NCBI GenBank assembly: GCA_963377175.1
Contig: CAUJNA010003101.1
Span: 545,001-609,000 of the forward strand
DNA: 64,000 nt
Source: Effrenium voratum
Lineage: Eukaryota; Sar; Dinophyceae; Suessiales; Symbiodiniaceae
Reading direction: 5' to 3'
Position numbers and translations under genes: made by a program. Position 1 is the stretch's first letter; every line of letters starts with the position of its first letter. Below are positions 26,977 to 62,600 of the stretch, piece after piece. Under the pieces are notes generated by a model. It did not search any database and was not told the DNA's origin. It saw nothing but the letters and a program-made list of their open reading frames with translations.

Positions 26977-27028
<52 letters not shown>

Positions 27029-27066
27029 CGCGCGCGCGCGCGGGTGTGTGTGTGTGTGTGTGTGTG
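26977..27066. repeat. (TG)n(CG)n(TG)n microsatellite, left target flank of the retroelement
   Basis: About 22 TG units, 11 CG units, then about 11 TG units run directly into the left direct repeat of the retroelement. A shorter TG run follows the right copy, so the element sits inside a TG microsatellite. Confidence 0.9.
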
Positions 27067-27315
27067 GCCCCCCTGTTCCTAAGGGGTTCTTCGGTCGCGT
27101 TTTCCTCTTTATTGGAGTCGGCCGCCACCGCCTTGGACGATCTAGCATGGAGTAACTAACGCACTGCTGGCGGTCCGGAAGAGGAGAGTGCGTTAGCGAA
27201 AGTGTCTAGACTTCCTCGGTGCCGAAACTCCATTGCCCTGCCGGAGACCTTCAAACAGCCTGTACCTGCATGGTGGTGCACATTGTCAGCTTTTGCCGTC
27301 TCATATCAAGTGTGT
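27066..27315 (+). repeat. left direct terminal repeat (pseudo-LTR)
   Basis: This 250-bp sequence recurs at 34989-35239 with one substitution and one single-base indel. Both copies begin at the end of a TG run and end in CAAGTGTGT. They lack the TG...CA termini and integrase context of a retroviral-type LTR. An internal 10-bp inverted repeat is listed separately. Confidence 0.9.
27156..27196 (+). other. stem-loop in the left direct repeat
   Basis: CTAACGCACT (27156-27165) and AGTGCGTTAG (27187-27196) are perfectly complementary, with a 21-nt loop that is GC-rich. The downstream bases read CGAAAG. Pseudo-LTRs of Penelope elements can carry hammerhead ribozymes, but the CUGANGA core is absent here, so this is only a structured-RNA candidate. 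Confidence 0.6.
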
Positions 27316-27617
27316 TTAGGCACTGCGTCCGGGCTTCGGTCAGTGTCTTGATCCCTGTTGTGGGCATCTGTTCCGACTCATGCACAGACATTTTCTACAG
27401 ACTGTTACCGGACCTTGTCGCTCGTGACGCTTGACTGTTCCAGCTGATCTTATCAATACAGGCTTGGACTTCTCCCAGACCTTCCGGCACCCCAGACTGT
27501 TTCCGTGAACCGTTTCTGTCAGACCAACTGTTTGACAACCAATCCGACTACCCGACACATCAGGTGGAAAATCACGACGCCGTCAGCTTGCTCTTGGCTC
27601 GCAATTGTTGGCAATAG

Positions 27618-29158
27618 ATGTCTCGCCCCCACGCAGGTCCGATGTCGAACTCGGCAGGCCCCATGGCCAAGGCATCCAGGAACACTGCCGGCCCTACGCC
27701 GCCCAGGTCTCCGGTGCACCGGTCAGCATCACCAAGCAGGAGTACGCTTGTGACACCAGCTTCTAGCATATCTTGCGAGGTGTCCAACGCCTCAAGGGCT
27801 GCCAAAGCAGCGGTCCCGGCTCCTGCTCCCGGAGACGCCTCGGCATCGATCCCTACCTTGGAGGTTTGGCCTGCATCTGTAGCTGGCCCACTGCCACAAA
27901 TCCTGGTGAAAGCACGCCCGGCCACACCGATGACACCAATGACTCCGATGACGCCAACTACCCCGACAGTTTCAACTACAGCATGCCCACCTATGCCCAC
28001 AGCACCGACCCCTATCGCACCGATCCCTACGGCAACTCCATCAGGTCAGATGCTTCCACCGCCCAACCCACCATCCAGGTCACGCCACACGACGGAAGGA
28101 GACCGGTCACGTTCCCACAACGCTTCCCCCTACTCCAAGTCAGTGCCCCCACAGCGGCGACGAGCTCGCTCCCGGACGCCACCTCCGATCTCCCGAAGGA
28201 ATCAACATCGGACAACACCATGACGGCAGCATCGAATGCTACCGCGCCGGCGCCCACAGCAGCCAAGTCCTCATCCCGGGCACCTACGGCAACTAAAGCT
28301 TCATCCCGACGACCGAGAAGCAATCGATCTCCCCTTCCGCGTAGCAGAAGCAGTGCCCCTTCAGCTCCAGCCTCCAAGGCCGCAGGAGCTCACCCGGATG
28401 CGGGGTCGTCCTTGAGGAGCATGCAACTACGCCCCAATCCGCAGGCACATCCACCGCTGGTCTTGCTTCCCAACCCGGAGTCTGATCCCTGGAGGAACGA
28501 ACTTCAGGTGCTGGCCGCACCATATCTTCGTGATGGGATCCCAGTCAATCAGGAGCAGATGAGCTATGTGGCCGCGACCTTGAATGCAGCAGGCATACCG
28601 TCTCAGCACTCCACCCTGAACTATGCGAAGGTCAACCCGGATCATCATTTTTATAAGATCACCCCGCACTGGTTCATGCTGACCGTCCCTTATCTTGGGG
28701 CCACAGTCCGGCTCAAAGAACCGACGAAGACGCGACCCATGCTGCTCTGGACTCACGCTTCCAGTGTTGGAGGTACTCGCGGCATCCTGCGGAGCCGACA
28801 GATCCATCCTTCCCGGCAGCACTCCTCGGAGTGCCCAGCCTTTTATGCCCAGGGCTGGAAGATCACTGGACACGCCGACTACGACGCTGAAGAAATCGCT
28901 CGCACGATGAGCCAGAACTGGAGCATGTCTTTTAACATGGCTCAATTGCTGTTGTTCGGACGCGCTGTTGGCACCTGTCAGCCGATTCGATCGGGAGGAG
29001 AGCAAGCTTGCATTGAGGCCCTGGACTCCAGTGAACGTCCTGATGTCATCCACTATGTGTCGGGCAAGTGTTGGATGGTGATCCCGGAGGCAAGCCAGAT
29101 CGTTGGACTCGCATGGCCCACCGATGCAAAACCACCCACTGGTGTCCTCCGCTCGTGA
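27618..29158 (+). CDS. retroelement ORF1, basic Pro/Ser/Thr-rich protein
   Basis: Starts at ATG 27618. The first 200 codons are Pro/Ala/Thr-rich with a PMTPMTPMTPTTPT run and an RS/basic end (PPQRRRARSRTPPP); that frame stops at 28223. A second frame (open 27773-29158, no ATG at its start) overlaps it and carries the more globular C-terminal part from about 28200, including HHFYKITPHWFMLTVPYLGA and a Trp-ending segment. The most economical reading is one ORF1 with a one-base frame change near 28.1-28.2 kb. The basic, low-complexity N-terminus suggests nucleic-acid binding, as expected of an ORF1 (inference). No zinc knuckle or RRM motif is visible. Alternatively two overlapping proteins are encoded. 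Confidence 0.55.
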
Positions 29159-29488
29159 ACCTGCACCAGGAGCTGTTGTAGCCATTGACAATTAATGATG
29201 TTTCATTGCGAATAAGAGCATACTTCGCCACACTGCCGTCTTCGACTACCGACGATATTTTGCGACAAAAAGCATGCACGCCAGAGCCTCATCCAAGCAT
29301 GCGCTCACCTTACTGCAGGGTTCCTTTTTTGAAGCTTTGTGTAGCTAACGCGGTTTTTGGTCTCTTACTGTCCCGGGCCCGGTCGGAATTCGGGTGTCGT
29401 TTTGGCAATGGTTGTTGTCTCGGAAACGTGTGGCGTACCCCTAGCGTTTAACCCATTAGCAGTGTGGCCGGCAACCTCCTATCTCGTG

Positions 29489-30643
29489 ATGGCTTCTCAG
29501 TGGAGCTATTCATGGCCGGCGGCATCGGCACCTTCTTCCTCTTCGCATCCGGGACCCTCGTATCTTCCGTCATGGTCAGTTCCGCAGCCCCAGCAGGAGG
29601 CATATCTCAGCTCCAATCGGACGGAACCATTGCAACATCAACTTCGCGAAGAAGCACCGTCCCGCGTCAATCCCCCTCGGCCCCCACAGATGGCTCATCA
29701 GTTCCCTCCTCAACCACCCGGTCAATTTTACAACTATCACGGTGGTGGAACAAGCCACATGCAGACAGGTCCTCGTCCTCCACCACCCGCACCGCCAGTT
29801 CAACCTCCAGTTCGGGCACCTCTAGGCCAGGGTGATGCAACGCAATACACTCAGCCTCGATATTCGCAGCTACTTCCCAGCACCTTCCAATCTGACGACA
29901 TCTTCCTAGACAAGACGGAGGTCCGTGGTCTGCAGCTATACCGTCACGTTCAGCCCACTCAGTGGTCCAGAAGAGTCGGGCTCGCAGGAACAGCTATCCT
30001 GGATCTTCCACTCACGCGACTTCTTCGAGGAGGAGCAGAAGATCACGCATTACGAGCACTGTCAAATGGCCGCTACAGCACACCAGTCATGGCTCAGACG
30101 ATAGCCGAGGCAGTCTTATTGACATCCATTCTCAAAGCATTGAGAGGCAGGGAGGTCGACATCGACAGGACAGCTCGCTCTCTCCACGTGGACAATGCGC
30201 CGGACAAACGCAATGAGGCCATGCAGTTTATGGAGCCACTTGCAATCAAAATCGTGGATCTCATGGAGTCCTTGCAGCCCGCCAAGCAGGAGAACCTCAC
30301 TCGCCACAAAATTGCCGAATTGGAGCAACAGCTGGAGCGCTACAAGAGCAAGGGCATCACTCTTACACCGGATAAGAAGCTGCCATCCTCGTCCCCTTCC
30401 AATGCCGCGTCCTGGACCCCCACGCCCGGCCGCTCCGACCAGTCCCTCTACATCAATGCGGCCAATTCAGATCAGCCAGGACCTCCCCTACCAGTTCCAT
30501 CTCCAGAGGCTGATCCAGCCCCTAAGCGACGACCAGCAAAGAGAAAGACCCCGGCGGCTCCCCCGGATGTCACTCTAGACTCGGACCTTCTACGTCAAGG
30601 GAACCCCAAAGGTCAACAGCACTCCTGCAGTTCATCACGGTGA
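29489..30643 (+). CDS. retroelement ORF2, Pro/Gln-rich protein with C-terminal coiled coil
   Basis: 384 codons from ATG 29489; the frame is open from 29357 but without an earlier ATG. The N-terminal third is Ser/Pro/Gln-rich and probably disordered. A middle segment (about residues 150-300) is more globular, with helix-rich text such as VMAQTIAEAVLLTSILKAL. It is followed by a short coiled coil (HKIAELEQQLERYKSKG) and a basic Pro-rich tail. I recognise no domain. It lies between ORF1 and the nuclease-RT frame on the same strand, with 265 bp to the next ATG. A coiled coil suggests multimerisation, perhaps a nucleocapsid-like role (inference). The frame is intact, unlike the downstream RT. Confidence 0.6.
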   Translation: MASQWSYSWPAASAPSSSSHPGPSYLPSWSVPQPQQEAYLSSNRTEPLQHQLREEAPSRVNPPRPPQMAHQFPPQPPGQFYNYHGGGTSHMQTGPRPPPPAPPVQPPVRAPLGQGDATQYTQPRYSQLLPSTFQSDDIFLDKTEVRGLQLYRHVQPTQWSRRVGLAGTAILDLPLTRLLRGGAEDHALRALSNGRYSTPVMAQTIAEAVLLTSILKALRGREVDIDRTARSLHVDNAPDKRNEAMQFMEPLAIKIVDLMESLQPAKQENLTRHKIAELEQQLERYKSKGITLTPDKKLPSSSPSNAASWTPTPGRSDQSLYINAANSDQPGPPLPVPSPEADPAPKRRPAKRKTPAAPPDVTLDSDLLRQGNPKGQQHSCSSSR

Positions 30644-30908
30644 TGTACATGTGTGGCAAGTGAGGGGAGTGACGGTAGCGCTCACGAGGAAGGAAGTTAG
30701 CACCATCGATACGACTGGTATGAAAAGCCCGCTGCTCCTCACGCCTGCACCTTGCCCTGAGACCATCAGCGGCCTTTTACCCTTTTCGTGTTCCTGTAGG
30801 TTCTCGGGGACGTGGGTTGTTTTTTTCCGGGGTTTTTTCCGTTTTTCCGTTTTTCCTGTTGACCCAATCAACCGTTCAGTGCTCGAGCGTTGGATGCATG
30901 GCTAAGCC

Positions 30909-31740
30909 ATGCCGGTCATTCAATCTCCAGAAACGGTTTTTCTTTTGCAACTATACAGCAAGTATGCCCGGTCGGAGCTTTACAGTGCAGCCAGACACTA
31001 TGGTATTCCTGAGCCGTCTTGGCCAGTGAGCCTGCAGCATGGCACCGATTATTTCCTTCCTTACATCGTTGCGCTTATTGCAATCAGACTCGGGGACTCC
31101 CTCGATGTGCATGCAGCCCACCAGTATTATCAGGTCCTCTATCTGATCATCGTCACGAGTCGCCAAATCCTCAACATGCCGATGGTCAACAAGCAACTGT
31201 CTATGTGGTCCGAGTCGATGTCCACGCTGCTGATGGTTCATCACTACGGTCGTCCCACGCACGCACTCACGGAGCTCAGGCGCCGACTCCGGCGTTTACG
31301 CATTCACCCGAACATGTACACCTTCACCCACTTCTTGCAGCCCAACGCAGTGTACTGGAAGCAGCGAGTCGAACTCCGCCCGGACCTTCCACGCTCCGTC
31401 AACCCGCAGTCGGACGTATACATTGGAAGCACCAGCATCACTTATCCCAGTCGAGAACACAATCGTAGGGCCAAGTTACTGGGTATTCAGCACGGACAGT
31501 TTATTAACGCGGAGCCGGCCCTCAGATGGTGGCATCATTTTGGCAACTATGACGAGTTTGCTACATGGGTTATCTTCACAGACTCCGACCATACCGTCAC
31601 CTGGACCCAGGAACACGCCTTGATCAGTATCTATCAGCCGTCCCTCAATTGGCCCTACATCTATCGGAGGTACAAGCGCATTTCCACCGGCTACACGGCT
31701 ACCAGGTTTCTCGCTGAACAGCCCTGTTTGGCAAACGCCT
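30909..31740 (+). CDS. GIY-YIG-type endonuclease region of the retroelement (5' part of the EN-RT frame)
   Basis: From ATG 30909 the frame encodes about 160 residues of unknown helical sequence, then DVYIGSTSITYPSREHNRRA (YIG at residues 171-173) and about 60 residues later QEHALISIYQPSLN (Glu235 to Asn247). The second half of the GIY-YIG signature, the conserved Arg/His after it, and the catalytic Glu followed by LIxxxxPxLN fit the GIY-YIG nuclease family. The GIY strand itself is not recognisable. In Penelope elements this nuclease nicks target DNA to prime reverse transcription. Its position in front of the RT is the permuted order. Shortly after Asn247 the frame is lost (around 31.70 kb) and continues in other frames, so this copy is probably not translatable as one protein. 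Confidence 0.68.
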
Positions 31741-33752
31741 TTTCCTCCGCTTGCGCAGGAGGAGTTGTACAGTCTATGGCAGGAACTTCCATCGGGTGGC
31801 GCTCAAGCACACCCAAGCCTGGTCCATCATTGCTCGCCTCACCTCGGAGCACATTGAATCCTGGGAGGAGGAAAAACGACTTCGTAGTGGACGGCGCTCA
31901 GACTTGGATATATATGCTATATACAGGCTGTCAGGCAATGTGGAACAGCCCCATCGGCATCGAGTTCGGAATATTTTGCGAAGAGTTCTTGATTTCCGGC
32001 AACTCCAACAACCCAAGATCAACTTGCTGTTGCGGTTACCGTGGCTTTCTCATCCCCATTATCAGGGGTCCACCAGGGAAGTCCTTCGTCGGCTTGTTCT
32101 CGACCATCGCAACTGGGCTCTTCCATTCCATTTACCCAGCACGAAGTTGGCGGAGACCCCTCATCCTCGAGTTCATACAGTCATGTGGAACTTTTCGTCG
32201 TTTCAGGACTGCTACCTCCTTACATCCGCAGGACCATCATCGTGTCAGTGCGCAGCCTGGCTAAAACGGCAGCCCTGGCTATCTCATGTTCAAGCCATGT
32301 GGCCGCGGGATTGGATGAGTTCCGGTTTCCCGGAACTCCACAGCACGTCCATTACACCTCAGCCTTGGCGTCATATTATGTGGACCTGTCAGTCTACGAA
32401 GTGCAGGTTCATGAACGCCTACGAAAATGGTGCCTGCACCATGGCCTGCCCCTGGACCAGCTTCACGCACCCCTCATGCAGCACCTACGCAGTGAATTTC
32501 TGAAACACCGGCAACACGCATCCACCCATCAACTTCTCACCAAGCACCAGCTGAACATCCTGCATCGACACCTCGGCCAGGACTTTGTGCGCCATAACGA
32601 GGACCATGACAACCACCACCTCATGTTCTTCTGCCCCCAACTCTACTTCAAAGGCCTCCACAACACTTGGCTTCAGTCCGGCACATTTGCCGCCACTCCG
32701 CTGAAGCCCGACCAGGCCGAGGCTCTTATTGTTGAAGCTATCCCCCGGCACCTGCAGAAGAGGTACAAATGGGCGTACAGGAAGAAGGCCACCGCGATCC
32801 CGGTCGGCAAGGTCTTTCTCAAACGTAAGAAGCAATGGAAATCGGGGCGAACTATTATAGCCTACCATAAGGTGGTGCACCGGCAGCTCTTCAAAGCGGT
32901 TGCGATCCTTCTCGGCAAGATCGCCGCGATCACATGGAAGTGTTCGTGGGGGGTACACCCCACGCCGAGGATATGGCAGAACGTCAAACAATACTTTGAC
33001 AACACAGACGACACAGTCCCTCTCGCATTTCACAACGATGACTTGGTCGGCTTCTTCAACAGTGTCCCTCAGGATCAGGTGTGCGCAGCAGTTGAGCAGC
33101 TATTAGCAGAGCACCGGCGAGAGCATGCTGGTCTCATCTATTCGGTGGAAACTCAGGCGGCGGTCCACTACAACCGGGTCTTTGCGGGTAAGCAATCCTA
33201 CGGACGCACGCCCACTACGCGGGTCATTTATGTGGAAGACATCCTGGATATAGTCAAATCCAGCTTCCAATGCATGTACGTCCAGGTGGGAACTCTCATC
33301 CTTCGCCAAGTCCACGGAACAGCGATTGGCTCTCAGCTGAGCCACATTTGCGTCGCGCGGCACGAAGTCCTCTGGCAGCGTATTTACGGACAATGGTTCG
33401 CCAGCCACAACATCTTCTTGGAGCGATATGTCGACAACAGATTCTTCCCGTCTCCGGCTTCCGGTCACCCAGCAGCCCCATTGGAGGCTTTGCTTCACGC
33501 TGACTTTTATGGTGCACCCATCGTGTTGGAACAGGTAGAAGTCTTTCCACCCTTCTCTCCGGGGCTAGATCACGGTCAGCTCTCGCCACCAAGTATGCGC
33601 GCCCAGCACGGGCAGTACAGATGGCGTTGGATCAGCTTCGCAGTATCTATTTGTCCGCCGGCTACAAGTCAGCGGATCTGCAGCACCTGTTTCATCTTCC
33701 GGCCATCCCGACCGGAAAGAATGTTTATGTACTGATTGTCGTTGTTTCTTGA
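31700..33752 (+). pseudogene. Penelope-type reverse transcriptase, frame-broken
   Basis: The main open block is 32041-33735 (no ATG at its start). It contains GRTIIAY; motif A as HNDDLVGFFNSVP (Asp at 33037-33042); motif B as QVHGTAIGSQLS (near 33307); and motif C as ERYVDNRFF (33421-33447). A D-L-V-x-F-F/Y-x-x-V/I-P motif A and a Q-x-x-G-x-x-x-G-S-x-x-S motif B are characteristic of Penelope and telomerase-like RTs. Motif C has Asn where the second Asp of YxDD is usual. The connector from the nuclease (about 31.70-32.15 kb) lies in two other frames. The thumb-like end (AVQMALDQLRSIYLSAGYKS) is in a third frame from about 33.56 kb to a stop at 33752. At least three, probably four, frame changes are therefore needed. 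Confidence 0.8.
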
Positions 33753-33942
33753 GGTTCGGCTGCGTGGCCCTTGCTGGTTCTGTTCGGTTCGGTCCTTTTC
33801 CAAACGGGGTCGGGCTCGGTTGGGCTGTTGGGCTTGGTTTTTCTGTTTGAGTTCCGGGGCCCCTTGACTCGTGGGTTCATCACGGAGCTTATCTGGCGGT
33901 TCAAGACGTGGGCCTTTTCGCCGACATCGGAACGCGGTCGTC

Positions 33943-34842
33943 ATGCTCGGACGCATGATTGCACTCCACCACCGGATGACCCAGAACGCTGCGGACATGA
34001 TGCAGCTCATCCAGGAGACCTTGAATCAGGCTGACGAGGCACACAGTCGCAGGATTCATGGCGGGCACGATGGCGTGCGGCATCATCATGTCCGAGGTCT
34101 ATCGCTGGCAGAATCATTGCGACCGAGAGCACATGACCATGCCCGACTCGATGAGGTAGAACCACCTGGCCCCGGGATTCGGCATTCGGTCAACTCGGAG
34201 GATCTGGCTGACCCTCCACCGCTAGCCGGCTTTCAGTCACTCCAGCTACACGTGGACCACCAGCACAACGCAGTGGTTAACCCCAAGTCGCTGTCCTACG
34301 GCGTCGTCACGGGGGACGCCAACGAGGCTATAGACCCACGCCCGAAGAGCTCCATGGCGCACACCCATGTCGGTCAGCCGAGCATCAAGAAGGCCAATGT
34401 TCCCAGCTCCATCATGGACAAGGGTGGGACCGATCGGCGCAGAACGAAGCGGAAGCGATGCCGTGCTACATCCTCCGAGAGGACGCACTCCCCGGAGCCT
34501 CCAGCACGTCCAGTACCTCGCACTCCAGCGCCAGCTCCAGTATCTCCTTGCGTGGGCCCATTCTCCTCTCCTGAATCCCTTCCTGAAGCCCCTGCCCGTG
34601 CTCACTCCGATGCTGGCAATCCAGGAACTCCCCCGGAGGTACCTCGCGCCTGGACAGAGGAAGATGACCAGCAGCTTTGCAGCCTGAAAGCGGACAACCG
34701 GTCCAAGTACTTGTACAAATCGCTGGCCAAGAAGCTCAACAGGTCCATTGCGGATGTCACGCAGCGCTGGAGGAGCCTGGAACGTCTCAGAAAGTTGAAG
34801 GAGCAGCACCAGAAAGCGACCATCTCGAACCAATGCACCTGA
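33943..34842 (+). CDS. retroelement ORF with C-terminal Myb/SANT-like domain
   Basis: 299 codons from ATG 33943; the frame is open from 33871 with GTG. The N-terminus is helical and Met/His-rich. The middle is basic (RRRTKRKRCRATSS) and Pro/Ser-rich. The last 66 residues contain AWTEEDDQQLCSLKADNRS, then SLAKKLNRSIADVTQRWRSL. The pattern W-x-x-E-E-D-x-x-L, a second helix, then I-x-x-V-x-x-R-W-x-x-L is that of a Myb/SANT DNA-binding fold. Myb-like domains occur in some mobile-element proteins and in telomere-repeat binders; here it could help choose the TG-microsatellite target (speculative). It is 190 bp downstream of the RT and 146 bp upstream of the right repeat. Confidence 0.62.
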   Translation: MLGRMIALHHRMTQNAADMMQLIQETLNQADEAHSRRIHGGHDGVRHHHVRGLSLAESLRPRAHDHARLDEVEPPGPGIRHSVNSEDLADPPPLAGFQSLQLHVDHQHNAVVNPKSLSYGVVTGDANEAIDPRPKSSMAHTHVGQPSIKKANVPSSIMDKGGTDRRRTKRKRCRATSSERTHSPEPPARPVPRTPAPAPVSPCVGPFSSPESLPEAPARAHSDAGNPGTPPEVPRAWTEEDDQQLCSLKADNRSKYLYKSLAKKLNRSIADVTQRWRSLERLRKLKEQHQKATISNQCT

Positions 34843-34988
34843 GCTCGGACGGCGATGCTACATGGTAAAATGATCGTGAGCAGTTAGGCAGGAGTTCTGC
34901 CAACAGTCTAAACTACCCATCGACAATCATGATGGAGGCGGCTTTTAGGCGTTTCGGTTTTTCTTCCCCCTGCGGGGGGTGTGTGTGT

Positions 34989-35239
34989 GGCCCCCCTGTT
35001 CCTAAGGGGTTCTTCGGTCGCGTTTTTCTCTTTATTGGAGTCGGCCGCCACCGCCTTGGACGATCTAGCATGGAGTAACTAACGCACTGCTGGCGGTCCG
35101 GAAGAGGAGAGTGCGTTAGCGAAAGATGTCTAGACTTCCTCGGTGCCGAAACTCCATTGCCCTGCCGGAGACCTTCAAACAGCCTGTACCTGCATGGTGG
35201 TGCACATTGTCAGCTTTTGCCGTCTCATATCAAGTGTGT
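34989..35239 (+). repeat. right direct terminal repeat (pseudo-LTR)
   Basis: Second copy of the 250-bp repeat, one base longer than the left copy (GAAAGATG against GAAAGTG) and with one C/T difference. It is followed by nine or so TG units of the split target microsatellite and then by unique DNA. Confidence 0.9.
35079..35119 (+). other. stem-loop in the right direct repeat
   Basis: The same 10-bp perfect stem as in the left copy: CTAACGCACT at 35079-35088 pairing with AGTGCGTTAG at 35110-35119. Confidence 0.6.
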
Positions 35240-36024
35240 GTGTGTGTGTGTCATGCGTGCTTGCGCGTGAATGTGCTCGTGAGCAAGCGCCTAGTTGTGC
35301 AAGTGGTTGCATGGTTGCATGGGTGGGTCCGTGCAGTTGGGCGTGCAGGATCACCCGATGGCCAGGCACTCTTCGCCAAGATCTGCATCGGGCCGTCAAA
35401 CATGTTGCCCACCGCGCATCGCCCCCGGCAAAAATGCTCTCAGCGAGTGCACCCGGGTGCTCCACGGAGGAAACGCGACAACGACCAAACCAGTCACATC
35501 GTGCCGAAACGTCAATGTCTAAGTTTCGGACTCCAGTCCTGCTCCTCGATGGCCAAGTCCTGGACAGTTTCACGATTTCGTGGGATTAGCACGCCGCCTG
35601 TGTGACCACCGTGCGGCAAGGCTGGGAATTCTTCAGTGCCTGTGGACCTCAGCATCTCTTGATCCCCAGGTGACATGATGCCCACTGGCCACCCAAAAGT
35701 CCCAAACGGCCTGCATGGCCTCCGACGCGTTCACCTGTGCGATGAGTTCGCAGGCTCTGACAGCTTTAGATACGTTGAGATTCCAAGACCTGAAAGAAGA
35801 ACCTTCCATGAAAGGATCGGAAGTAAAACAGGACACTGCAAGGAGCTCGCCTGAACTGCCAAATCTGACACGCCCCTGACAGCCATCAAAATGGACTTGC
35901 CCGCGTTCAATTCATGGATTCCCAGGATTTGCAAACCTGTGAACGATTTAGAAGGGGTATCCGTCGGTGGGGTTTCTTCATTTTTGTTGGTGTCCGTTGG
36001 GGTTTCTTCACTTTGGTAGGCTAC

Positions 36025-37706: not shown

Positions 37707-38140
37707 GATCAAAAAAGGACCCCCACCCCTCGGTAAGGAGCTTCATAGCTGGGCTCATCGTAATCCTGAGGGAGTTTGTTGCTTGTCCAAATCGATTGCC
37801 ACAATGTGCCGTTTTCCTCGCGCCTGGCATGGAAAGACACCCATCTCCACGAAACAACGCGCACATTGCCAGCGATCCCGGAAGCGGACCCATGGGCTTG
37901 GAGCCTGCCCTCTCCGAGCGAGCCCATGGGCCCATGGGTCCCAGCTCTGGGGCACCCTGGCCGTCACCAATGCATCGGCGCCTGGACGGGCGCTTTGCCA
38001 GGCGCGAGCAACTCGACTGGAAGAGTTGAGCCCTGGCCTGAAAAGATCGGAGCTTCGAACTACACCGCCATTCGTCACAGACAGAATGGCTGGACATGTG
38101 AAATCTGAAAACCTGCCATTCACCATGGGCCTGAGTCAGA

Positions 38141-38224
38141 CACAAACAAACAAACAAACAAGCAAGCAAGCAAGCAAGCAAGCAAACAAACAAACAAACA
38201 AAACACACACACACACACACACAC
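38141..38224. repeat. (CAAA)n(CAAG)n(CAAA)n(CA)n compound microsatellite
   Basis: Tetranucleotide CAAA and CAAG blocks are followed by a CA run. Simple sequence only. Confidence 0.9.
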
Positions 38225-39112
38225 GTCACACGGATCAATTTGCGAGCTTCTGCTACGCTTTAAATTTAGGACAAAACTTGCGAGAAGGGCAGAGCTATTG
38301 GATTGAGTTGCGACCCTGGGTTTTGTGAAATGCTGTTAGCCAAGCAGAACTCGCGGGCCACGCTGGCAGGAAGCAGTTGGCCGAGGTCATTCCATTGCTG
38401 GGCTATCAAGGCAGATTTTGAGTGGCGGGAGAACCCTTCAATGTACAGGGGGAAGGGATGTAGTGACTTGTTAAAAGGAGGGATCGTTGGCCGTGCACAA
38501 GTCTGGCCATGAGCTGTGGTTTGGAAAAGCAAACGTCTCCGAACAACTGCAGCACAACTACTCGGCTGGAAGGCCCAGTCGCATTGCCCGACACCGCTTC
38601 CTTTCCCAACCCTTCCGAGCCTGCACCCTTGCCAGCCAAGAAGGCTTGGCAGGCATTGAAGAAGGCCGCCTAAAAACAAAAATGTGTCGACTTTCTTCCT
38701 TTGCCTTGCCCCCAAAAAAAGACAAGCACATTGAGATGGCGATGGGCAACATCAGGATATCCCAAGACGAAGGCGAGTATCCCTAGAGACCCCACACGCT
38801 ATATGAGATAAGAATTACAAATTATCTACTAGCGTGGTCCATACCCCCAGAACAGTGCACAGGTGCCCTTCCAACAAGACAGGAGTCTGCCAAGACCGGC
38901 GACAAATCCATGGAGCTTCTAAGCAACAAACCAGTCCGGGCCCAAAAGCAACATTTGCAAAATATGTAGATCTCTTATACACTGAAACAAGAGGCATGTT
39001 GAACGTCGCCATACTATGATACCTAGCACAAAACACAGAAGGCGGGCGTGTCTTTGCAATGATTTGGCAGCTGCTGCGTCGCGCAACTCCTGACATTGAT
39101 GACGATATGAAC

Positions 39113-39766: not shown

Positions 39767-40406
<640 letters not shown>

Positions 40407-57874: not shown

Positions 57875-57943
<69 letters not shown>

Positions 57944-59695: not shown

Positions 59696-62600
59696 CTAAT
59701 GCGAGCATGGGCAAGCCGAATTGAAGTCATAATTGTCATGATCAAGGCTGAAGGAATACACACCAACTAGCGAGAGAGCAACCTAGGAAATGCGTAAACA
59801 GCTGCTGCTCTTGCAGTCTCCCCACCCGCTGCCTCTTCTCATCGTACTCTCTGTTCAGGCGGTCGACAAAGAGCTGCTTCTTCTCAATTTGGTGGTGTCT
59901 CTTCCGAATCTCTTGTTCCTTACTTCTCGCGCTTCACGCTGAAGTGACAGCCAGTCCGCGACTCAGTCCCAAGACGATTTGAGTCTCTCAAAGATCAGGG
60001 CTCCTGCAATTGGTCGCAATCTTTAGGAAGCCGTCAAAAGCTCAAAGAGGCCAGGCCAGGCCAATCACAAGAAGCCAAAGCTGGCCACAAGCACAAGCTG
60101 ACATCTCCACCAGCACAGTTCTAAAGAGGCGATATGCGAAGATGCTGTAAAGAACGTCAGGTTGGGAGCAAAGGGTTCTTCAGAAAAAGCGCATTTGTTT
60201 CACACATGACTACAACCCGGCTTTGCTCTCACAAAGCAGGTGCACCAAATGCAGCTGTCGCCCTTTCATGCAGACACGGCACGTACTGCTCGATGAGCTT
60301 CTCGCGCTCCGCCAGCTCATCGCCTAGAGAGGTTCGTGCTGAAATATCAACCAATCATAAGGGCCCTACTCTAAATACATGGTCGTGTGAAGGGGGCTTT
60401 GCTCAACAAATCGCTGGTGGGGCGCAAGTGACCAGGACATCCAATCATGTCTCCCTCATACATATATACATGTATATATACATCATATATTGTATATATT
60501 ATATAATTATATATACTAATATATTATTGATAATATATATATATATATATCAACCCCAGACCCTTCTCGCCGCATGCCCTACGAGGCCGCGGCTGAGCTG
60601 CTTGTGGCGATCCTTGAGCATCTGATTGTGCGCCTTGGTGTTGAGGCTGTCCACCGTGACACGGGCGATCTCGTTGAGAAGGTTCTGCGTCTCCACCTGG
60701 CAGAAGTGCCCGCTCGCACTTAGTTAGTATCATATTCCAGTGATGAGTAGGAACTGCAGCAGTTGACCATTGGCCGAGTCACATGTGATGCTTGTTGCTT
60801 TAGGCATGAGGTGCAAACTACTTTGTTGTTCAGCCTTCTTCTGTTGCTTGATCTTCATCACTACTTATTTTCACACGTTTTGGCTCCGTAGCGAAGTCGC
60901 GCATTGCTGGCACTCGTTTGAGGGTTTGGCTTCTATTTCAGTTCAGGGCATTCTCAAGGTCACCGTAAAATCTAGAAAGCGAAACGTCAGAGCTGCTCAC
61001 ACGCCTTCGGTCCCCTGCAGCATGTGGCCAACTCGAGTACGGAGGGGGGGCTCGAGGCAAACAACTTCAGGTGCTGATTTCCGGAGGGCAGCACTCGGGT
61101 CCGTTTTGCTGAAACAAACTAGCAGGGCTGCGGACGGAAGCAGGGATTAAGCAAAGCCCCGGCGCGGGGCAACTTGAAAAGCTACTGCAACAAAACCTGC
61201 TAATCCCTGCTAGTTGGTTAATCTGATTAGCCCCTTTTGGCCTTTGACATGATCTGACTTGAGAAGATGCACCGTGACACTTAAATGTTTTGATGCATGT
61301 GTACACGGCTCCCCCCCTTTTGGCCTTTGACATGGTCTGATTTGAGAAGATGCACCGTGACCCTTGACAGTGCGCGTTCATGCATATGTACACGGCTCCC
61401 CCCCTTTGGCCCTTGGACATGATCTGATTTGAGAAGATGCACCGTGACCCTTGACAGTTCGTTTACATGCATATGTACACGGCTCCCCCCCCTTTTGGCC
61501 TTTGACATGATCTGATTTGAGAAGATGCACCGTGACCCTTGACAGTTCGTTTTCATGCATATGTACACGGCTCCCCCTCTTTTGGCCTTTGACATGATCT
61601 GATTTGAGAAGATGCACCGTGACCCTTGACAGTTCGTTTTCATGCATATGTACACGGCTCCCCCCCTTTTGGCCTTTGACATGATCTGATTTGAGAAGAT
61701 GCACCTTGACAGTTCGTTTTCATGCATATGTACACAGCTCCCCCCCCTTTTGGCCTTTGACATGATCTGATTTGAGAAGATGCACCGTGACCCTTGACAG
61801 TGCGTTTTCATGCATATGTACACGGCTCCCCCCCTTTTGGCCTTTGACATGATCTGATTTGAGAAGATGCACCGTGACCCTTGACAGTTCGTTTTCATGC
61901 ATATGTACACGGCTCCCCCCCTTTTGCCCTTTGACATGATCTGATTTGAGAAGATGCACCGTGACCCTTGACAGTTCGTTTTCATGCATATGTACACGGC
62001 TCCCCCCCTTTTGGCCTTTGACATGATCTGATTTGAGAAGATGCACCTTGACAGTTCGTTTTCATGCATATGTACACAGCTCCCCCCCCTTTTGGCCTTT
62101 GACATGATCTGATTTGAGAAGATGCACCGTGACCCTTGACAGTGCGTTTTCATGCATATGTACACGGCTCCCCCCCTTTTGGCCTTTGACATGATCTGAT
62201 TTGAGAAGATGCACCGTGACCCTTGACAGTGCGTTTTCATGCATATGTACACGGCTCCCCCCGTTTTGCCCTTTGACATGATCTGATTTGAGAAGATGCA
62301 CTGTGACACTTGAATGATCCTGTTCAAAGCACAGCTATCGGCAATTGCCTTGGCTTCTTTGGCCGCCATCCCCAGCCATCGCCCGCCTCCTTTGCCGCGA
62401 TCTCTTCCCGAATCTTTTTCATTCGTTTTCGGCCTAGGCTGCGTCGGCAAGTGGAGCATGACACAACCTGCGGGCATCAGTGCCCAAGTAAACAACATGA
62501 AAACTAAGAGTGGCCTTCTTCGAACCAAGGCGGTTTGTAGATCCCCCTCCTGCCCAAGTTTGACTCTCACGAACTTAGGCCAGGCAGCCAGGGCTTATCC

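Follow-up and report, generated by a model that had tools for sequence, protein, structure and literature searches.

A damaged copy of a multi-copy, probably Penelope-like retrotransposon with accessory genes in the dinoflagellate Effrenium voratum

We analysed a stretch of 64,000 nucleotides from the genome of the dinoflagellate Effrenium voratum (assembly GCA_963377175.1, contig CAUJNA010003101.1, positions 545,001 to 609,000; hereafter, the window), in which a retroelement lies between two direct repeats at a TG microsatellite. The element has two upstream open reading frames (ORF1 and ORF2), a region with an endonuclease-like (EN) block followed by a reverse transcriptase (RT), and a Myb-like ORF. 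An earlier note, made from the letters alone, had described a permuted Penelope-like element of this layout, and all three additional ORFs are present. The permuted order is also borne out, as the EN block precedes the RT motifs rather than following them as in the canonical arrangement. The features are as follows, in positions of the window.

26977-27066, no strand assigned: left flank, a TG/CG microsatellite that is the target DNA (45 TG copies by Tandem Repeats Finder), directly adjoining the left repeat
27056-27315, forward strand: left pseudo-long terminal repeat (pseudo-LTR), beginning (TG)5GGCCCC and ending ATCAAGTGTGT, then TTAGGCACTGCG; junctions alike in 11 of 11 one-piece copies
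27618-29158, forward strand: ORF1, with an Arg/Ser/Pro-rich N terminus and a conserved C-terminal domain, in two frames with a break near 28200
29489-30643, forward strand: ORF2, in the gag position, with an early end in the window copy
30909-33752, forward strand: EN-RT reading region, in three frames in the window copy
31353-31655, forward strand: GIY-YIG-like nuclease block (VY, YIG, R, E, N), from invariant residues and an hhalign score above shuffles
32243-32251, forward strand: CxC motif (CQC) in the EN-RT linker, a sequence motif also found in relatives
33034-33441, forward strand: RT sequence motifs A (NDDLVGFFNSVP), B (GTAIGSQLS) and C (RYVDNR)
33943-34842, forward strand: Myb-like ORF, with the Myb domain at about 34651-34782, from a Pfam match and substitution rates
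34966-34989, forward strand: CCCCCTGCGGGGG, then an internal (TG)5 tract that is the left edge of the repeated stretch, from junction comparison
34979-35239, forward strand: right pseudo-LTR, from repeat alignment
35234-35251, no strand assigned: right flank, a TG run of 12 letters past the element end, from the sequence

A unit measures about 8.2 kb, and the window copy 7.9 kb. In the window, the EN-RT frame shifts near 31725 and 32296, and short stretches that relatives possess are missing around motifs B and C and at about 33540; ORF2 is shorter than in other copies. With EN-RT spread over three frames and small pieces lost, the window copy is very probably not functional. The 99.6% likeness of its two repeats nevertheless suggests a fairly young insertion. 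We considered that EN and RT in the window might be linked by a programmed -1 shift, and dropped this because the same genome holds copies with EN-RT in one frame.

Copies, gene order and selection

We searched the host genome (1.156 Gb, 3,699 contigs) with the left repeat and scored 40 of 206 candidates; 28 of these matches lay in pairs on 14 contigs, the window's included, and 12 were single. Twelve of the 13 other paired loci were fetched, leaving out a pair 30 kb apart on C791 and the 12 single matches. Every fetched locus carried ORF1, ORF2, EN, RT and Myb in that order. Ten are in one piece, and two (C651 and C3211) hold insertions and were each read as two stretches. Among these loci, which were picked for paired repeats, none lacked the repeats and the accessory ORFs.

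As a second query, we used the database protein P0015, for which 47 matches were scored of 1,840 candidates. We assigned 29 of them to the window lineage by rank and by 34-35% identity to P0015, with only L045 and L046 read in detail. A Myb match lay at most 1.5 kb downstream of the RT in 28 of the 29 window-lineage matches and in 0 of the 18 matches of other lineages; the Myb search scored 123 of 3,864 candidates, and a miss is no proof of absence. The accessory ORFs therefore do travel with the RT, a point that the earlier note had raised for checking. On C678, Myb-ORF matches at 29550-30518 and 37775-38743 are 8,225 bp apart, which is one unit length, and we read them as probable head-to-tail tandem copies. 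Several other copies have unbroken EN-RT frames of 980-1,060 codons.

Nei-Gojobori ratios of non-synonymous to synonymous substitution (dN/dS) were obtained for seven of the ten one-piece loci, comparing L014, L020 and L022 with L015, L016, L018 and L019. Between these subfamilies, dN/dS was 0.11-0.16 for ORF1, 0.07-0.09 for ORF2, 0.07-0.10 for EN and 0.25-0.35 for Myb; for RT it was 0.05-0.07 without L015 and 0.20-0.23 with it. Copies of one subfamily differ by few changes, and among them the ratio lay between 0 and 0.65, with its maximum for RT between L016 and L015. Because the between-subfamily ratios are low, all five segments behave as genes of the element, and the ratios indicate purifying selection on each.

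The accessory ORFs have few recognizable domains. ORF1 and ORF2 gave no Pfam domain. The window Myb ORF matched PF13921 at E 5.5e-4 with 20.5 bits, short of the 22.9 that Pfam requires, and among 17 Myb members scanned PF13921 was matched in 10 and Rap1_C in 12, all weakly. The Rap1_C match in the window Myb ORF (33868-34839) is likewise weak and below the curated cut-off. The lack of Pfam domains in ORF1 and ORF2, together with the absence of a Myb ORF near 18 of 18 RT matches of other lineages, could be taken to mean that these three ORFs are host genes or chance frames beside an RT. We regard this as extremely improbable: it is contradicted in this genome by the constant order in the fetched copies and by the purifying selection, and ORF2 has homologues in four other lineages.

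Proteins of the same family are present in the databases. The RT part retrieved 50 homologues among 8,000 candidates scored, including P0001 (56 members), which is 94% identical over 72% of the RT query. Full-length relatives have about 850-975 amino acids with the EN block before the RT, and named relatives are Symbiodinium (NCBI) and 'Skav' (EukProt) proteins. ORF1 as query gave 10 proteins and Myb 29. Some gene models join neighbouring parts of the element: P0010 unites ORF1 (44% identical in that part) with RT, P0013 unites ORF2 with RT, and P0005 and P0009 unite RT with Myb. For five RT proteins, the longest contig has the same size as that of an ORF1 or Myb protein (1052268, 303645, 269753, 491567 and 74431 bases), which we took as a sign of the same contig. 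None of the 50 RT homologues carries a precomputed Pfam label, although gene models of the family form clusters of up to 244 members; for want of such labels the family has probably been missed in annotations. Viral contigs yielded no confirmed relative. The database relatives of ORF1, RT and Myb, the recurrence of all five segments and dN/dS well below 1 amount to more than chance; the element is real and a member of a multi-copy family.

Nuclease block and reverse transcriptase

The EN block contains GIY-YIG-like landmarks. YIG at 31419-31427 and Glu at 31611 are where the earlier note had placed them; its Asn at 31638 is instead the Pro of PSLN, the Asn codon being 31647-31649. The residues Y, Y, R, E and N were invariant in 10 of 10 rows. 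When compared by hhalign with the GIY-YIG domains of T4 and UvrC, the block gave P 0.0042, with eight shuffles at 0.14 or above and a reversed profile at 0.23. A more diverse profile of 13 rows, from which L043 was left out as its end pattern is missing, scored 20.8, and none of 200 shuffles exceeded 18.2; in the same comparison, scores of 7.6-13.7 came from ten other slices of the family. The alignment is short (30-31 columns) and in register with the catalytic Glu. Homology to GIY-YIG nucleases is weak but above controls. A PHROGs search gave weak, scattered matches only. We saw no Cys-His cluster between VY and YIG. Between EN and RT, the CxC motif of the window recurs in P0014, P0015, P0016, P0021, P0022, P0026, P0028, P0033 and others, and is missing in some gene models in which that part is absent, such as P0017-P0020.

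The homology of the RT is clear from profile comparisons. RVT_1 matched 18 of 29 members at E of at most 1 (best 8.1e-6). By hhalign, the RT scored 40.7 against two telomerase reverse transcriptases (TERTs), compared with at most 20.4 in 100 shuffles, and the match to human TERT is co-linear across RT motifs A to C. In the window, motif A occupies 33034-33066, motif B 33316-33339 and motif C 33424-33441, with Asn replacing the second Asp in motif C. This replacement is a property of the family: motif C reads RYVDNR or RYADNR (YxDN rather than YxDD) in all 35 proteins with RYxD, a count that was the same whether the pattern required Arg after the motif or left it open, and the other 15 of the 50 homologues lack that part. 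In the genome, DN occurs in motif C of 19 of the 20 loci L027-L046; L032 shows no such motif.

Terminal repeats, TG target and identity of the element

The direct repeats expected from the earlier note, which gave 250 bp, are present and slightly longer. Positions 27056-27202 and 34979-35125 are 99% identical and 27203-27315 and 35127-35239 100% identical; aligned end to end over 260 bp, the repeats agree at 259 positions, the rest being 1 mismatch and 1 gap column. Pseudo-LTRs bound all 11 one-piece copies (the window and ten loci), with repeat-pair identities of 97.65 to 100%. In each, the left repeat ends CAAGTGTGT, adjoining TTAGGCACTGCG, and the right repeat starts at the internal (TG)5 after CCCCCTGCGGGG, in place of which L019 has CCCCCTGAGGGG. 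The inner junctions agree in all 11, a sample picked for paired repeats. In all 11 copies, one or both outer ends are followed by a TG run that extends at least 6 letters past the element; both ends are in 4 (L013, L017, L021 and the window). A word search among the ten fetched one-piece copies showed a 28-bp target duplication in L019 and, in 8 of the 10, no shared word as long as 12 letters other than words made up of T and G alone. Terminal repeats and TG flanks also occur in related elements of the same genome, with data from one locus each: a lineage B locus has terminal repeats of 450 bp (99.1%) 8,228 bp apart with a TG repeat at the left outer end, and a lineage C locus has repeats of 540 bp (99.8%) 8,261 bp apart with TG repeats at both outer ends.

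Rfam searches found no hammerhead in the window element or in L013, L020, L048 and L049, and no ribozyme family was matched; mir-297-type matches in L013 fall in TG repeats. A hairpin within the repeat was no more stable than shuffled sequences when folded (z -0.61 and -0.98).

Repeats of 260-540 bp with edges that are fixed rather than variably truncated in all 11 copies, and an ORF2-then-EN-RT order resembling gag-pol, would suit an LTR retrotransposon with true LTRs, as would the longer repeats of lineages B and C. This is very unlikely to be the explanation. Our Pfam scans (E of at most 1) revealed no integrase, protease, RNase H or gag family, a nuclease-like block stands ahead of the RT, the repeats lack a CA end, the single clear target duplication measures 28 bp and the insertions are in TG repeats.

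The closest likeness is to Penelope-like elements (PLEs) with an N-terminal endonuclease. Chlamys/Naiad elements also have the nuclease before the RT, a CxC linker, pseudo-LTRs, microsatellite insertion and no known hammerhead, and Chlamys, too, is not known to have a Cys-His cluster between VY and YIG. This clade, reportedly described by Craig et al. 2021, has CxC between EN and RT, a bias towards microsatellites, an insertion-in-fingers domain in the RT and no canonical hammerhead ribozyme. The element here has ORF1, ORF2 in the gag position, the Myb ORF, fixed repeat edges and YxDN, and its sister lineages have a candidate UGA readthrough junction, features that Chlamys/Naiad elements are not known to have. 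PLEs form tandem copies and pseudo-LTRs according to PMC11167929 and PMC8969392. Penelope/Poseidon elements, as described in PMC11167929, share the pLTR-ORF-pLTR plan, the tandem copies and the combination of GIY-YIG nuclease and RT in one protein; they differ in having the nuclease after the RT, a single ORF and a hammerhead ribozyme. Telomerase RT is alike in the co-linear motifs A to C and unlike in having xDD where this family has YxDN, in lacking a nuclease and in not being mobile. The window element is likely to be a damaged, fairly young copy of a multi-copy N-terminal-endonuclease Penelope-like retrotransposon with ORF1, a gag-position ORF2, EN-CxC-RT (YxDN) and Myb.

Several results weigh against this identification. 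Pfam GIY-YIG matched no family member scanned, and PDB profile searches gave neither an RT nor a GIY-YIG nuclease. The RT scored 47.6 by hhalign against human TERT alone, 41.1 against a set of group II intron and diversity-generating retroelement (group II/DGR) RTs and 12.8 against Candida TERT alone; with a broader set of 15 RT rows, which omits L030, L034 and L043 (motif A is IGFF in these, not VGFF), group II/DGR (43.9) ranked above TERT (38.3). The 5' truncation of PLEs is variable as described in PMC8969392, whereas the repeat edges here are fixed; the right repeat end deviates in 2 of the 11 copies (L015 and L019). In nine of the ten copies, the word search revealed no target duplication, if a 14-letter TG-type word in L016 is set aside. 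Lastly, the RT on C3146 has no Myb match beside it, the sole exception among the 29.

By these scores the RT is clearly an RT, and similar values for TERT and group II/DGR do not single out one clade. It might lie outside the Penelope group, in a separate retroelement class that converged on the EN-CxC-RT plan, and YxDN in all 35 readable proteins, the lack of Pfam labels among the homologues and the combination of fixed repeats with several ORFs would agree with such an origin. We hold this to be unlikely, as the order of EN, CxC and RT, the pseudo-LTRs and the TG insertion jointly fit Chlamys/Naiad, and the human TERT match is co-linear over motifs A to C.

For a Penelope-like element of this kind, the junctions allow a model of insertion. 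The endonuclease would nick a (TG)n/(CA)n tract, the RNA 3' end ...CAAGUGUGU (written as DNA) would pair with the CA strand, and the RT would prime there and copy the RNA. A second template might then be copied in tandem, with synthesis halting at a GC-rich hairpin and leaving a (CA)5 end. Pairing of this end with target TG would set the left repeat edge, which is fixed in all 11 copies. As for the Myb protein, it may direct the particle to chromatin.

Sister lineages and a UGA junction

The same genome contains four further EN-RT lineages, A (L027 and L028), B (L029-L032 and L039), C (L033-L038, L040 and L042) and D (L043 and L044). In comparisons of whole EN-RT frames, these lineages share 42-57% identity with one another; with the window's lineage E (L045) they share 31-34%. 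In A to D, an ORF2 homologue, 35-46% identical to that of L045, lies directly upstream of EN-RT in the same frame with one TGA between them. The TGA is followed by CT in all 15 readable A-D junctions (TGACTAG in 12, TGACTAC in 1 and TGACTCG in 2); the junction could not be read in L027, L041 and L042, and L045 and L046 are lineage E loci. UGA CU(A)(G) is given as a core readthrough motif in PMC4207609. CTA makes up 33 of 395 Leu codons, yet follows TGA at 13 of the 15 junctions. Among rows spanning the junction in a search across it, at least one TGA was present in 27 of 27 A-D rows (the search output does not locate the stop), and no stop was present in 44 of 48 lineage E rows (tallied by hand), where the matching domain sits inside the EN-RT frame. 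The database protein P0035 continues across the junction; three of four alignments put a Trp at the stop, and the remaining one puts it beside the stop.

A shared frame, interrupted by just one UGA in a readthrough-type context, suggests that in lineages A to D, though not in the window lineage, programmed readthrough most likely yields EN-RT as part of a scarce, gag-pol-like ORF2-EN-RT fusion. The UGA might instead be an ordinary stop, with EN-RT starting separately and no fusion. UGA does terminate further ORFs in these elements, namely 4 of the 5 EN-RT frames that were checked as well as window ORF1 and Myb; the RNA downstream shows no consistent stability of folding (z +1.18, -2.62, -0.62 and -1.73), and the window lineage has separate frames. 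We consider an ordinary stop the less probable explanation, if a credible one, given the shared frame and TGA-CT context across four such divergent lineages, the rarity of CTA among Leu codons, the continuation of P0035 and the stop-free lineage E rows. Separately, the ORF downstream of EN-RT in L049, L034 and L050 (C3336:388001-403500) also ends TGACTA, a readthrough-type context, which may be due to chance.

Lineages A to D have an Arg/Ser-rich ORF downstream of EN-RT in place of Myb. In B, C and D, its C-terminal part resembles window ORF1 (hhalign P 0.0014 over 176 columns); ten shuffles gave 0.2 or above, the reversed profile 0.068 and blastp only 0.067. This likeness suggests that ORF1 changed sides of the RT. 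The Myb ORF marks one lineage only, whereas ORF2 (clearly) and ORF1 (more weakly) have relatives in deeper lineages. Tentatively, and with rather more doubt than over the window element itself, these lineages could form a Penelope/telomerase-related class that works in a gag-pol-like manner, with a UGA-CUA readthrough fusion, a YxDN RT and one lineage with a gained Myb and an ORF1-like gene across the RT.

With a dinoflagellate host, the element would place Penelope-type elements in alveolates, part of TSAR (Telonemia, Stramenopila, Alveolata and Rhizaria). PMC12477816 (2025) states that PLEs were previously unreported in TSAR and names Chlamys-group PLEs in Ectocarpus, likewise a TSAR alga. 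Among the literature matches listed, no publication title concerned such a dinoflagellate or alveolate Penelope-type or readthrough element. If our reading is correct, a gag-position gene, a readthrough switch and a protein that binds DNA can all form part of elements of this type, and the choice of TG repeats, RT function with YxDN and the evolution of readthrough to set pol dosage become testable.

Elsewhere in the window, a CA repeat of 640 bp (39767-40406) lies about 4.5 kb downstream of the element, a tandem array of about 12 copies of an 87-bp unit occupies 61231-62313, and a run of 68 A (57875-57942) is possibly the tail of another retrocopy.

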